Positions 2,833 through 12,116 of a stretch of DNA of 64,000 bases are shown piece by piece (the stretch's first letter is position 1; every line of letters starts with the position of its first letter). Below the pieces are notes generated by a model. It was given only the letters and a program-made list of their open reading frames with translations. It was not told where the DNA came from and did not search any database. The stretch is taken from positions 1-64,000 of IMG/VR virus record IMGVR_UViG_3300013109_000059, one strand, 5' to 3'. Source of the DNA: a virus. The translations under genes and the position numbers were made by a program.

Positions 2833-5454
2833 TTACACATCAATGTAAGTTGCGATAACTTTCACTGTTGCTGATCCTGTTGTTGGTGTATACTGTAGTA
2901 GAACATCACTGCCCGACATAGTAACACTTGCATCACCAATTAAGTCTGCTCCGGTATAAACCATTGCGTACTCAGTGATGTATGCAGTCGTACCATCGTG
3001 TACAACTAATGCTTCTCTTGATTCGTAGTTACCTGCACCGTCGTCAACTTGCATGATATATTTTGCTGAACGGTATGTACCGCCTGCAAAAGTATCAATT
3101 GTAGTTGCACCTGTTACTGCAACGTCAGATCCTTGTACATACGCCTTAACGTCTGTGCCCGCGATTTGAGTTGATGTTACAGAACCTGCCTGTAATACTG
3201 GTACTGAAGCTACTGCTGGGTTAATTACAACCGCCTGCGTTCCTGTTGGAATGTTTGACGTAAATGTAATTGATGAACCAGTAATAGTATAGTGAGTTGT
3301 TGGATCTTGAATAACACCACCTACAAACACATAAGCATGGCTTTGTGAGCCTGTGAAGCCTAGTGCGTAAGTTGCTACTCCTGAACCGTTTATTACTACA
3401 CGATTCTGACTGCCCCAAACAACTACTGCTGGATCTACAAGTTCCATCGCTGTTGCGCCGGAATTAACTTGTAAAACGTAATCAGCTTTTGCTGTAAATG
3501 TATTATCAGTTACGTCAGTTAGCTCTAATAGAGCTGCCGCCGCATCACCAACTATCCATTCGCTGCCATCATGCTTTAAGAACTTACCTGAAGCTGCACC
3601 TGTTGTGTCAACATCTGCAAGATCTCCAACGCCTGCTAAAGCAATACGTGCATCTGCTACTGTGATTCCACGTGCAGTTGTCCAATATAAATTTGAAGCT
3701 TCTGCAACGTCGTCAGTATCTAATGCTGAGATTGTGTTGTTAATTGTTGTAACTTGACCATCTACGTATGTTTTGTTAGCCGCATCACCGCCTGCTGCCG
3801 GAGCTGCAAGACCTGTAATTGAGTTTGAACCCATTGCAATGTTGCCAGTCATTGTACCACCAGCTAAAGCTAGTTTCGTTGCTAGATTTGTTGTCATTGT
3901 ACCTGCGAAGTTAGCGTCATCATTTAATGATGCGGCTAGTTCGTTCAATGTATCTAGAGCCGCTGGTGCCGCGTCAATAACCGCTGCAACTTGAGCATCT
4001 ACATATGTTTCTGTAGCATATGAGTTTGTACCTAAGTACGATGCAACACGTGCATCTGTGTAGTATAAGTTACCTGAACCTTCTGTTAGGTCATCAGTAT
4101 CTTTTGTAGCAAGACGTGCATCAAAGTTAGCGTCTTTGTATGTTACTACACCGAACGCACCAGTAGTTGAGTTATAAGTTAAATCACCTGTTGCCGAAAG
4201 GGCACCACGTGCTAACGCCTCAATTGCTGAGTTTGTACGCTCTGTATAAGACATAACACCAGTTGTTGCATTATATGCCAACGAACCGGATGCACTTATT
4301 GAGCTACGTGCTCTTGCTGTTGTAAAGTACAAGTTTGTACCTTCACTTAAATCATCAGTATCTAATGCCGCAATACCCGCATTAAAGTCTGCTGTATCAA
4401 AGTGATCAGCTGTTGTAAATGATGAGCTTCCACCATCCCAAACGATTGTGTTACCGCCTGCGATTCCTGAAATATCAACATCTGAAAGATCACCAACCGA
4501 TGCTCCAGCAATAACTGCGTTTGCACGAGCATTTGTAAAGTATAAGTTGCTTGAACCTTCTGATAAATCGTCTGAATCAGCTGCTGCTAACTTTGTATCA
4601 AACGCCGCATTTGCACGAGCGTCTGTGTAGTATAGGTTTGTTGAACCTTCTGATAAATCATCAGTGTCAGCCGCTGCAATTGCTGTATTGAAACGTGCTT
4701 GTGTCCAATATAGGTTGCTTGAACCTTCTGATAAATCGTCAGTGTCGTGGTTAGCAATTGATGAAACTGTACCAGTTACTGTACCAGTTATGCTACCAAG
4801 AAATGAACCTGATGTGTATAGGTTTTCTGCACCTATTGACCATCTGTCATTTGTTTCGTCCCAGATAAACGACTTGTCGCCATCTGATCCACGCTCAACT
4901 GTAATACCTGCGTCTATTGTACCCGTTGTTGCGTCTTTGTTTAATACAAGGATGTTATCAGAAATTTCAACTGTAGTTGAGTTAACTGATGTAGTTGTAC
5001 CTTGAACTGTTAAGTCACCACCAACAATCATGTTACCAGAAGTTGTCACGGTAGCTGATGTGATGTCATCTGTTGTTAATGTACCGTCAACTGCTACGTT
5101 GTTAAACGTAACGTTGTCTGTAGTAGCAACAGCCTGACCAATTGAGATAGCTCCACCTGCAACAGCAACACCTGTGCCGCCTGTTACATAGCCGTCTACT
5201 GAAGTACGCACACGTGCGTCTGTAAAGTAAACATTGGTAGAACCTTCACTTAAATTATCAGTATCATAAGAACCAATTAGATTAGCTGAGGTGATTTTTT
5301 TCAAAGCACCGTTTGCTGAATCATGAACCATTAATTCGTCTGCTCCAATAAGTGATGTAACAGCTGAGTGGCCTGAAACTGCTGTAACGTCTAGCTTGGC
5401 TGTGATAACTGCCTGATCCGCAAGAGCAGGAGTTTTAATTTGTCTAAAAGCCAT
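2833..5454 (-). CDS. Large repeat-rich tail fibre protein
   Basis: The protein has 873 residues from the ATG at 5454 (MAFRQIKTPALADQ), which has GGAG seven bases upstream. A longer reading from an upstream TTG is unlikely because it would cover that ribosome site. Seven copies of a unit like DTDDLSEGSTNLYYTDARA occur through the protein, a repeat widespread in marine phage fibres. A block containing LDTLNELAASLNDDANF is shared with the S74 fibre. The C-terminus is beta-rich with no chaperone signature. The likely role is a structural fibre shaft. The leader upstream holds three hairpins. Confidence 0.75.
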   Translation of the reverse strand: MAFRQIKTPALADQAVITAKLDVTAVSGHSAVTSLIGADELMVHDSANGALKKITSANLIGSYDTDNLSEGSTNVYFTDARVRTSVDGYVTGGTGVAVAGGAISIGQAVATTDNVTFNNVAVDGTLTTDDITSATVTTSGNMIVGGDLTVQGTTTSVNSTTVEISDNILVLNKDATTGTIDAGITVERGSDGDKSFIWDETNDRWSIGAENLYTSGSFLGSITGTVTGTVSSIANHDTDDLSEGSSNLYWTQARFNTAIAAADTDDLSEGSTNLYYTDARANAAFDTKLAAADSDDLSEGSSNLYFTNARANAVIAGASVGDLSDVDISGIAGGNTIVWDGGSSSFTTADHFDTADFNAGIAALDTDDLSEGTNLYFTTARARSSISASGSLAYNATTGVMSYTERTNSAIEALARGALSATGDLTYNSTTGAFGVVTYKDANFDARLATKDTDDLTEGSGNLYYTDARVASYLGTNSYATETYVDAQVAAVIDAAPAALDTLNELAASLNDDANFAGTMTTNLATKLALAGGTMTGNIAMGSNSITGLAAPAAGGDAANKTYVDGQVTTINNTISALDTDDVAEASNLYWTTARGITVADARIALAGVGDLADVDTTGAASGKFLKHDGSEWIVGDAAAALLELTDVTDNTFTAKADYVLQVNSGATAMELVDPAVVVWGSQNRVVINGSGVATYALGFTGSQSHAYVFVGGVIQDPTTHYTITGSSITFTSNIPTGTQAVVINPAVASVPVLQAGSVTSTQIAGTDVKAYVQGSDVAVTGATTIDTFAGGTYRSAKYIMQVDDGAGNYESREALVVHDGTTAYITEYAMVYTGADLIGDASVTMSGSDVLLQYTPTTGSATVKVIATYIDV

Positions 5455-9878: not shown

Positions 9879-10478
9879 TTATGCTACGCTAGGTCCATAA
9901 ACAGAAAGAATAGACCAGCCTGCACTTGTATAAATCATCTCTACACTTTGACCAGCTGTTGTGAACGCTACAGTACTGAAACCGTTCGCTGTACTAGGAG
10001 TTACAACAACTGTACCGGCTGGTGTCGCTGTAGTAACTATAACTTTTCTCTCACCCTCTATACCGTTTGATAGTGATAGTGCTAAATCTGTACTTGCGTC
10101 TACGTATACTGTGCCTCTAGTATCTAGTGAAACAGAATTTGTAGCTGACTTTGTTAATATTACTATTTTTTGTAAATACCCAACATTCCATGGATTAGTG
10201 TTACTACCTATATTATATTGTATGCCTGAGTCTATATTAGGTATAACATCGCTACTGATATTGGCATTTAATGTTAAGGAACCGCCTCCGTTACCTAGTG
10301 ATATAACATCTCCGTTTACAACAAGGGTGCCTCCGATATACATATTACCGGCCGCATACGTTCCACCTTTATTATAAAGAGATGCACCTACTGGATCAAC
10401 AGGAGATACGCCAACATCCAATGTGTTGGTGCTTTCTATAACTAATGTTCCAGAATCTGGATTAATGTGTGATGACAT
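9879..10478 (-). CDS. Small fibre-like virion protein
   Basis: The protein has 199 residues and is the first gene of the fibre operon. The N-terminal half has a beta-rich motif, GGTYAAGNMYIGGTLVVNGD, of the kind found in fibre and spike heads. A segment IGSNTNPWNVGYLQKI follows, and the C-terminal half is rich in Thr/Val strands. There is no identifiable enzyme motif. Two late-promoter-like sites lie just upstream. A structural role is inferred from context and composition only. Confidence 0.5.
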   Translation of the reverse strand: MSSHINPDSGTLVIESTNTLDVGVSPVDPVGASLYNKGGTYAAGNMYIGGTLVVNGDVISLGNGGGSLTLNANISSDVIPNIDSGIQYNIGSNTNPWNVGYLQKIVILTKSATNSVSLDTRGTVYVDASTDLALSLSNGIEGERKVIVTTATPAGTVVVTPSTANGFSTVAFTTAGQSVEMIYTSAGWSILSVYGPSVA

Positions 10479-10500
10479 AATACTTTTTTCCTACTACTTC

Positions 10501-10509
10501 CTATTTATA
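10501..10509 (-). promoter_or_regulatory. T4 consensus late promoter (TATAAATAG)
   Basis: The minus strand reads TATAAATAG, an exact match to the T4 late element TATAAATA. It lies 23 bases upstream of the fibre operon start at 10478. The predicted start is about 10496. Confidence 0.7.
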
Positions 10510-10520
10510 TAATTATATAT

Positions 10521-10529
10521 GTATTTATC
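10521..10529 (-). promoter_or_regulatory. Second, tandem late promoter (GATAAATAC)
   Basis: The minus-strand GATAAATAC lies 20 bases upstream of the consensus site. It has the form seen before most other late operons in this window, so the fibre operon may have two late starts. Confidence 0.5.
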
Positions 10530-10556
10530 AAAGGTAAGATGTTTTGAACTGTCATA

Positions 10557-10813
10557 AGAAAAGACACATTAAATTAATAATGCGTCTTTTCCGTTAATAA
10601 GTTAAATAGGTAGGACTTGGTTACACCTACAAGCCGGAAACACAGATACCATTCTATAATTCCAGCAACCTAACCCCGCCAGTGACTGCGATGTGACTCC
10701 CTCTGTTTTCCAGATAAAGCCTGGGTACCACCCCTGGTTAGTCAAGTTAGAGCCTCTGGTAAGACCCTCTTCCTTGCACTATTAACAAAAAGTAATTAGT
10801 TTTTTGTTACTTA
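10557..10813 (-). ncRNA. Candidate stand-alone structured RNA between capsid and fibre operons
   Basis: This gene-free gap has its own sigma70-like promoter on the minus strand (10821-10849) and ends in a hairpin at 10559-10590, predicting an RNA of about 255 bases. It is more GC-rich than its surroundings and contains pairable segments: CTAACC at 10670-10675 with GGTTAG at 10736-10741, GTAGG at 10610-10614 with CCTAC at 10626-10630, and CCAG/CTGG pairs. No open frame of useful length was seen. It is not a tRNA. The family is not recognised, and the strand is inferred from the promoter and terminator. Confidence 0.45.
10559..10590 (-). terminator. Hairpin terminator of the candidate RNA
   Basis: The stem is AAAAGACgCATTA with TAATGtGTCTTTT around a TTAATT loop, with one mismatch. 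On the minus strand the stem ends in TTTT followed by CTTAT. The symmetry would allow some function on either strand. Confidence 0.6.
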
Positions 10814-10820
10814 TGTGTTT

Positions 10821-10849
10821 AATATATAACAGTTTTGCCTAAAGGTCAA
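10821..10849 (-). promoter_or_regulatory. Sigma70-type promoter for the candidate RNA
   Basis: On the minus strand TTGACC (10849-10844) is separated by 17 bases from TATATT (10826-10821). The predicted start is about 10813. It lies between the capsid terminator and the RNA-like region, so it serves no protein gene directly. Confidence 0.5.
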
Positions 10850-10886
10850 CCTTTTTTTTAATCTTTTTTTAATTTTATCCACAGCC

Positions 10887-10916
10887 AAAAAAATAGGCCC
10901 ATTTCTGAGCCTATTT
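10887..10916 (-). terminator. 23: Intrinsic terminator after the major capsid gene
   Basis: The minus-strand stem AAATAGGC/GCCTATTT with a ten-base loop is followed by a T-run. It lies about 30 bases past the capsid stop codon at 10947. Confidence 0.85.
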
Positions 10917-10946
10917 TTATGTAAAAAATTGTATTCTAGTAAAATA

Positions 10947-12116
10947 TTACTGGAATGACAAGTTACTTGCGTTAACATCAATTTTAGAAACGTAGTCCGC
11001 CGCATTACCAAGAGATGAAGCCTGGTTATTTAGCTCAACATAGCCATAACGTGTCATAAATGATACTGTTGGCTCGAATGTTGCCGGATCTAATACTGTG
11101 CCTGAAGACATTAGTGGAATGTATGGGCAATAAAATGCTGCCGCATCAATTTCACCGTCGCCTTTATAGCCAACTAGTACTGGAGCATTATCTGCCGCGT
11201 ACTGGTCAACAAAAACACGCATAGTGCCATTCAAAGTACCTACAAATTTAGTATTTGTTGGAGCTTCAAAAGGTCCTTCAGTTGTTCTTGCGAACGCTGA
11301 AGTTGTTGCACTTTGTAGTACTGTTAACATAGTTGGTGAAACAACGACATAGTTACCTGCACCACGACGTGTTCTTGCCGCGATTAGGTTAGCTGATCTG
11401 TTTATAAGAACTGCTAGTGCCGCATGTTGGTCTCCAACGAAAGTTGCTGTACCTGATACTGAACCTTGGTCATATGTATCAGTTGCCGCGCCTGCTAATG
11501 TACGTAGTGAACCGATCACTTCTTGATCAATCTCAGCAGTAATTTCTTGGGCAAGTGCCTGCATAATTTCTGCTTCAACGTCTAGACCGTGCATTGCGTT
11601 TGCGTCTTGAGCCGCTTCAAACGTCCAACGAGCACTCAATTTACGAGTTTTCGCTTCAACTGTTTGCTTCAATACTTGGATAGAAAGTTTCTTTCCAGCT
11701 TCTGCTTCTAAAGAAGAAGTTGAAGTTGCTGCGCCTGCTGATGCGTTTGCATCACCTGAGTATCCTTTTGCAATTGCAAATGGAGATAAAGCTTCATCAC
11801 CTGCTGAAACGCCTGATGCTGTTTCGCCATATCTTACTCTAAGTGTATGTATTTGTCCTACTGGACCTGTCATAGGCTGTACGCCTACAAGTTCGTTTGC
11901 GATAACTGTTGGCATCACACGTCTGATAACTGGAAGAATCACTTTGTTAAGTGATGCAACGTTACCCGCCATAGTTGTGCCAGCTGTAGCTGATTCTGAA
12001 AGGTAGCTCTTAGTGTTTTCAAGAACTGATTCCATTACAACCTTTTTGTTACCTTCTAAGCCATCTGTTAGGGCGTCTTTTGTAACGTCCCAATTTTCAA
12101 ATAGATTCTGTGTCAT
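10947..12116 (-). CDS. 23: Major capsid protein gp23
   Basis: The 389-residue protein resembles T4 gp23 in sequence (LNKVILPVIRRVMPTVIANELVGVQPM, TFEAAQDANAMHGLDVEAEI, YVELNNQ near the end) and in gene order after 20-21-22. T4 gp23 is 521 residues, so this is a short form. The N-terminal part holds LSE at about 39-41, a candidate site for the gp21 protease, whose T4 specificity is [LI]xE. GGAGAATT precedes the ATG. It is the last gene of the head unit and is followed by a strong terminator. It forms the hexamers of the head shell. Confidence 0.93.
   Translation of the reverse strand: MTQNLFENWDVTKDALTDGLEGNKKVVMESVLENTKSYLSESATAGTTMAGNVASLNKVILPVIRRVMPTVIANELVGVQPMTGPVGQIHTLRVRYGETASGVSAGDEALSPFAIAKGYSGDANASAGAATSTSSLEAEAGKKLSIQVLKQTVEAKTRKLSARWTFEAAQDANAMHGLDVEAEIMQALAQEITAEIDQEVIGSLRTLAGAATDTYDQGSVSGTATFVGDQHAALAVLINRSANLIAARTRRGAGNYVVVSPTMLTVLQSATTSAFARTTEGPFEAPTNTKFVGTLNGTMRVFVDQYAADNAPVLVGYKGDGEIDAAAFYCPYIPLMSSGTVLDPATFEPTVSFMTRYGYVELNNQASSLGNAADYVSKIDVNASNLSFQ

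Follow-up and report, generated by a model that had tools for sequence, protein, structure and literature searches.

A divergent manA-family RNA beside the major capsid gene of a marine T4-like phage: comparative evidence for a probable stand-alone RNA gene

The manA RNA motif (Rfam RF01745), whose known home is the T4-like marine phages, was published by Weinberg et al. (2010, PMC2864571) as a riboswitch-like candidate for cis regulation. Its structure was corrected in Rfam 14 (PMC7779021) and a copy was noted in phage S-CREM1 (PMC9964418); these three papers and a 2025 review (PMC12197685) all list it as cis-regulatory. No paper treating manA as an independent transcription unit was found in a literature search that reached few subscription journals. 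T4-like marine phages have further structured RNAs, in part within the same genomes, such as the wcaG RNA (RF01761) and the glutamine riboswitch or glnA RNA (RF01739) of cyanophages; these are different families with no match in the region described here. Phages also produce stand-alone small RNAs (PMC12197685), which the present RNA resembles in being short, untranslated and predicted to have a promoter and a terminator of its own, although it is larger and more intricately folded and no antisense target was found for it. The manA family is thus already known; what is new is the comparison with relatives that points to an independent unit, a sub-type scoring below the Rfam cut-off, sites from which the RNA is missing, and the reading of tRNA-linked and antiparallel copies as evidence on its role.

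The stretch of DNA analysed (the window, 64,000 nucleotides) belongs to a virus contig of 82.7 kb, whose T4-like structural block includes a scaffold-like protein, gene 23 and the portal; its source is a marine virus of bacteria belonging to the T4-like phages. The features of the locus are collected in Table 1. Gene 23 and the 199-aa gene are separated by 468 bases (10479–10946) holding no credible gene, in agreement with the original prediction of a gene-free stretch; a 47-aa ORF on the minus strand (10602–10745) was rejected as a gene because nearly every frame is closed by stop codons in 45 diverse homologues. Neither ARAGORN nor Rfam detected a tRNA or tmRNA in the window. The nearest named relatives of the window's gene 23 are those of the jumbo phages Phosso, Vibrio phage 2.275.O and the PA5oct group, at 68–70% identity. 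Under stricter filters, manA RNA was not found in the tested jumbo phages with the most similar gene 23, nor in Syn9, S-PM2, S-SM2, S-RSM4 and HTVC008M.

Table 1. Predicted and annotated features around the RNA locus (window positions)
Feature	Position	Strand	Basis
Gene 23, major capsid protein, upstream neighbour of the RNA	10947..12116	-	389-aa ORF; tblastn to phage major capsid proteins
Gene 23 terminator hairpin	10889..10918	-	13-bp stem, -18.3 kcal/mol, z = -6.2, then T run
Sigma70-type promoter of the RNA, TTGACC-17-TATATT	10821..10849	-	Chance level alone; place conserved in relatives
manA RNA, multibranched fold	10600..10806	-	Rfam full-length match; covariation on 45 relatives
5' hairpin P1 of manA RNA	10786..10806	-	Rfam alignment; covarying in relatives; near expected start ~10813
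Intrinsic terminator of the RNA	10557..10592	-	15-bp stem, -19.1 kcal/mol, z = -8.9
T4-late-type promoter element of the next gene, GATAAATA	10522..10529	-	Motif [TG]ATAAATA, predicted
Downstream gene, 199 aa, no PHROG	9879..10478	-	Beside structural genes; differs between relatives

The RNA segment of the minus strand matches RF01745 in sequence and structure over the full model (positions 1–192 of 192), scoring 57.8 bits where the gathering score is 55.2, with an E value of 3.8e-12 for the 64-kb window. With only 2.6 bits above the Rfam cut-off, as compared with 181–186 bits for the manA RNAs of three Prochlorococcus phages, it is classed on this match as a divergent member of the family. 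Like the copy in Prochlorococcus phage P-HM1, it adjoins gene 23; unlike the motif as filed, a cis leader, it comes with a promoter and a terminator of its own, and no gene is evidently under its control. A DNA similarity search with the region gave one true homologue, Pelagibacter phage Mosig, and short AT-rich matches to Staphylococcus phages that were judged spurious. Relatives were drawn from two IMG/VR pattern scans that required the exact core, which yielded 111 distinct sequences with a complete RNA among the matches listed; the counts given below describe the sample drawn by these scans, not the ocean. A manA sub-type with the core GATAGTGCAAGGAA (contigs L011, L022, L025, L033, L046 and others) has the core, fold and promoter in common with manA, scores 36–50 bits, below 55.2, and is missed by Rfam searches at the gathering score. 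A pattern scan of bacterial genomes gave no credible manA among the hits kept and did not recover the bacterial copies reported in 2010; a Photobacterium hit was rejected for having no manA match.

Over the whole stretch from 10557 to 10849, the minus strand folds at -90 kcal/mol (z = -4.9), and none of 200 shuffled sequences was as stable, so that the folding check proposed for this locus came out in favor of a structured RNA. The long-range complementary segments that had been noticed in the original prediction correspond to the helix of 5 bp that closes the manA fold, in which 10779–10783 pair with 10605–10609. Covariation among homologues, which had been set beforehand as one of two tests, was found: 45 representatives show 395 two-sided changes, compared with 160 in column shuffles, which break the relatedness between sequences, and at most 207 when pairing partners were slid, a control that keeps it. 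For the same representatives, 79% of the cells in the Rfam structure are paired (63% in column shuffles, 38–54% with partners slid), and two-sided changes occur in 42 of 55 pairs, a result equalled by none of 500 shuffles. Much of the covariation lies in the helix at columns 88–93/160–165 and in the two 3' hairpins, whereas the closing helix shows no variation in its inner pairs. This covariation supports the view that the family secondary structure has been kept. The loop tip of P1, in the window and its relatives, takes one of a few distinct forms (GACG, GATA, TAGC, TAATTA, TTATAA, TAGCTA, TGATCA). Kissing interactions between P1 loops were considered and rejected, since the palindromes among these (TAATTA, TTATAA, TAGCTA, TGATCA) are mainly confined to one sub-type and the others have GACG or GATA.

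The promoter is one of 6 such sites in the window, where 6.9 +/- 2.5 are expected, and is therefore at chance level when the window is scanned alone. Comparison with relatives nevertheless bore out the claim that the RNA has its own sigma70-like promoter: among the matches listed, 103 of the 111 relatives have a promoter at the same place (at least 10/12 positions, a spacer of 16–18, 29–41 nt before the invariant core), as against 1.3% of shuffled upstream sequences. It is present in 42 of the 45 representatives, which are less than 88% alike, and reaches 10/12 or better in 92 of 94 cyanophage-type relatives (among the matches listed). In P-HM1, P-SSM4, P-SSM2 and S-SSM7 promoter and RNA are directly adjacent, so that the 5' hairpin begins approximately at the expected transcription start. 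A conserved sigma70-type promoter is accordingly predicted directly in front of the RNA. At 112679–112740 of P-HM1 (contig L373), the -35 box of the RNA, TTGACA, lies inside the gene 23 terminator hairpin (GGGTGCTTGACACCCTTTTTTT), and terminator and promoter thus overlap.

The order of elements in the window lineage is capsid terminator, own promoter, RNA, own terminator and T4-late-type promoter of the next gene. Both hairpins of the original prediction, the RNA's own terminator and the one insulating it from gene 23, stood up to analysis (Table 1), and the transcript expected from promoter and terminator, from ~10813 to ~10557, agrees with the predicted length of about 255 nt. Most relatives have a terminator at the same place as the window's, unrelated in sequence, and in most relatives of the window lineage it lies ~11–17 nt past the closing helix. 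A wider finder located a terminator within 90 nt in 65 of 106 window-type relatives among the matches listed, compared with 1.3% of mononucleotide shuffles; in three more a tRNA-Gly takes its place, for a total of 68/106 with a terminator or tRNA. The late motif [TG]ATAAATA is rarer in the window than expected (8 against 19.4) and is found downstream of the RNA in 44 of 60 terminator-bearing relatives among the matches listed, where 1.65 would be expected. The mark of a stand-alone small RNA gene, its own promoter and terminator conserved in relatives, is present here. Just 3' of a number of cyanophage-type manA RNAs lies a conserved terminator with internal loops, AGACCTAAGATGCAACTC-loop-GAGTsGGGCAGATGGTCT followed by T, of which a pattern found 18 distinct copies (in L386, L388 within 3470–3600, L390, L397, L410, L415, L419, L421, L441 and others); it has no Rfam match and may represent a separate RNA motif.

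The placement of the RNA in relatives points in the same direction. In relatives that lack it, the downstream gene's late promoter follows directly on gene 23 and its terminator. P-HM1 has the block behind gene 23 and P-HM2 lacks it, and the published P-HM2 transcriptome is therefore uninformative for this site. Among relatives, the block is present or absent as a whole. In contigs L035 and L098 the RNA and gene 23 run antiparallel and converge. tRNA genes adjoin manA in S-CREM1, where it lies between tRNA-Leu and tRNA-Asn, in S-SSM7, where tRNA-Gly starts next to it, in L032, L132 and L204, and in several cyanophage-type contigs. These antiparallel and tRNA-linked copies would further support the independence of the RNA gene.

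Taken with the conserved promoter and terminator and the covarying fold, these observations suggest that the region is probably a self-contained gene for a stand-alone, early-transcribed, trans-acting structured manA RNA. Host RNA polymerase with a sigma70-type factor would transcribe it early in infection, a timing suggested by the promoter type, and the transcript would end at its own terminator; elsewhere, the RNA may be cut out of a precursor shared with tRNAs. It would act in trans through its compact multibranched fold, and because the conserved positions are found in junctions and helices and not in an extended single-stranded seed, its most likely binding partner would be a protein or ribonucleoprotein of the host or the phage.

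The strongest rival is a cis-regulatory leader, in which a signal-sensing RNA is followed by a regulated terminator, the hairpin at 10557–10592, that controls the 199-aa gene. This accords with the classification of manA as a cis-regulatory candidate in Rfam and by Weinberg et al. (2010), with the terminator between RNA and gene, and with the many relatives in which the RNA directly precedes gp32, rubrerythrin, peroxiredoxin or other genes. However, a riboswitch or attenuator calls for a terminator that is mutually exclusive with the sensor fold, and here the terminator lies outside the fold, its mean longest pairing with its own RNA being 6.28 bp against 6.33 bp when terminators and RNAs are swapped between phages. 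Its stem varies freely in sequence between relatives, the gene behind it differs, and there is no gene for the antiparallel and tRNA-linked copies to control. Nor does the window copy lie in the 5' UTR of a controllable gene, given the terminator and the separate late-type promoter predicted for the next gene; this leaves family membership intact, since the role is an annotation and not part of the model. The lack of support for a regulated terminator and the next gene's own late-type promoter favor the stand-alone, early, trans-acting RNA, and a leader role at this locus is considered unlikely.

The evidence that counts against a stand-alone RNA comes from copies with neither a terminator nor a tRNA in the stretch examined (38/106 window-type and 46/88 cyanophage-type copies among the matches listed, a class in which inspection showed that the finder had missed some terminators and tRNA genes), many of which directly precede a protein gene and fit a leader. 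Many precede gp32; in Mosig, manA precedes a rubrerythrin gene, and other copies precede peroxiredoxin, Hsp20, transaldolase or purL (gene names on contigs read from protein sequences). A leader function in cis is possible in this class. In its window-type gp32 members the late promoter begins 6–7 nt past the closing helix, so that transcripts would include the RNA only if started at the early promoter. The gene behind the RNA is preceded in many relatives by a late promoter of its own and carries a structured leader of its own, the freshwater-2 RNA (RF02980; L023:5273-5344, 55.2 bits vs 49.9, with 64 distinct leader sequences of the same gene in related contigs), which would make a further leader upstream unnecessary. 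One contig with manA before gp32 also has a permuted tmRNA gene (L301:5983-6247).

The tRNA neighbors mentioned above would suit an RNA made like or with phage tRNAs and acting on the translation machinery. Most copies have no neighboring tRNA, and no tRNA-like end was seen; this reading, which is a special case of the stand-alone RNA, is improbable. It is more doubtful still that the region is a transcription module with a functionless RNA, whether as a transient insertion or as an early promoter cassette with an incidental product: presence and absence of the block at the same site would fit, but strong covariation over deep divergence indicates selection on the RNA fold. A small protein gene, to which annotated hypothetical ORFs overlapping manA in P-HM1, P-SSM4 and S-SSM7 and the 47-aa ORF might point, can be practically dismissed in view of the interrupted frames, the covariation and the indels.

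Beyond the window, it is tentatively proposed that manA has been misfiled, and that across marine T4-like phages it may chiefly be an early, stand-alone, trans-acting promoter-RNA module, ending in a terminator or with tRNAs behind it, that is gained and lost at various places in the genome; copies at gp32 and metabolic genes would share a transcript with the gene rather than act as riboswitches. The copy next to gene 23 offers a clean test, because an early-type promoter there sits inside a late gene block. If manA is indeed stand-alone, the search for a ligand of this RNA, an orphan riboswitch candidate since 2010, would be misdirected, and a widespread RNA of the ocean's T4-like phages would act on the machinery of the host or of the phage itself.
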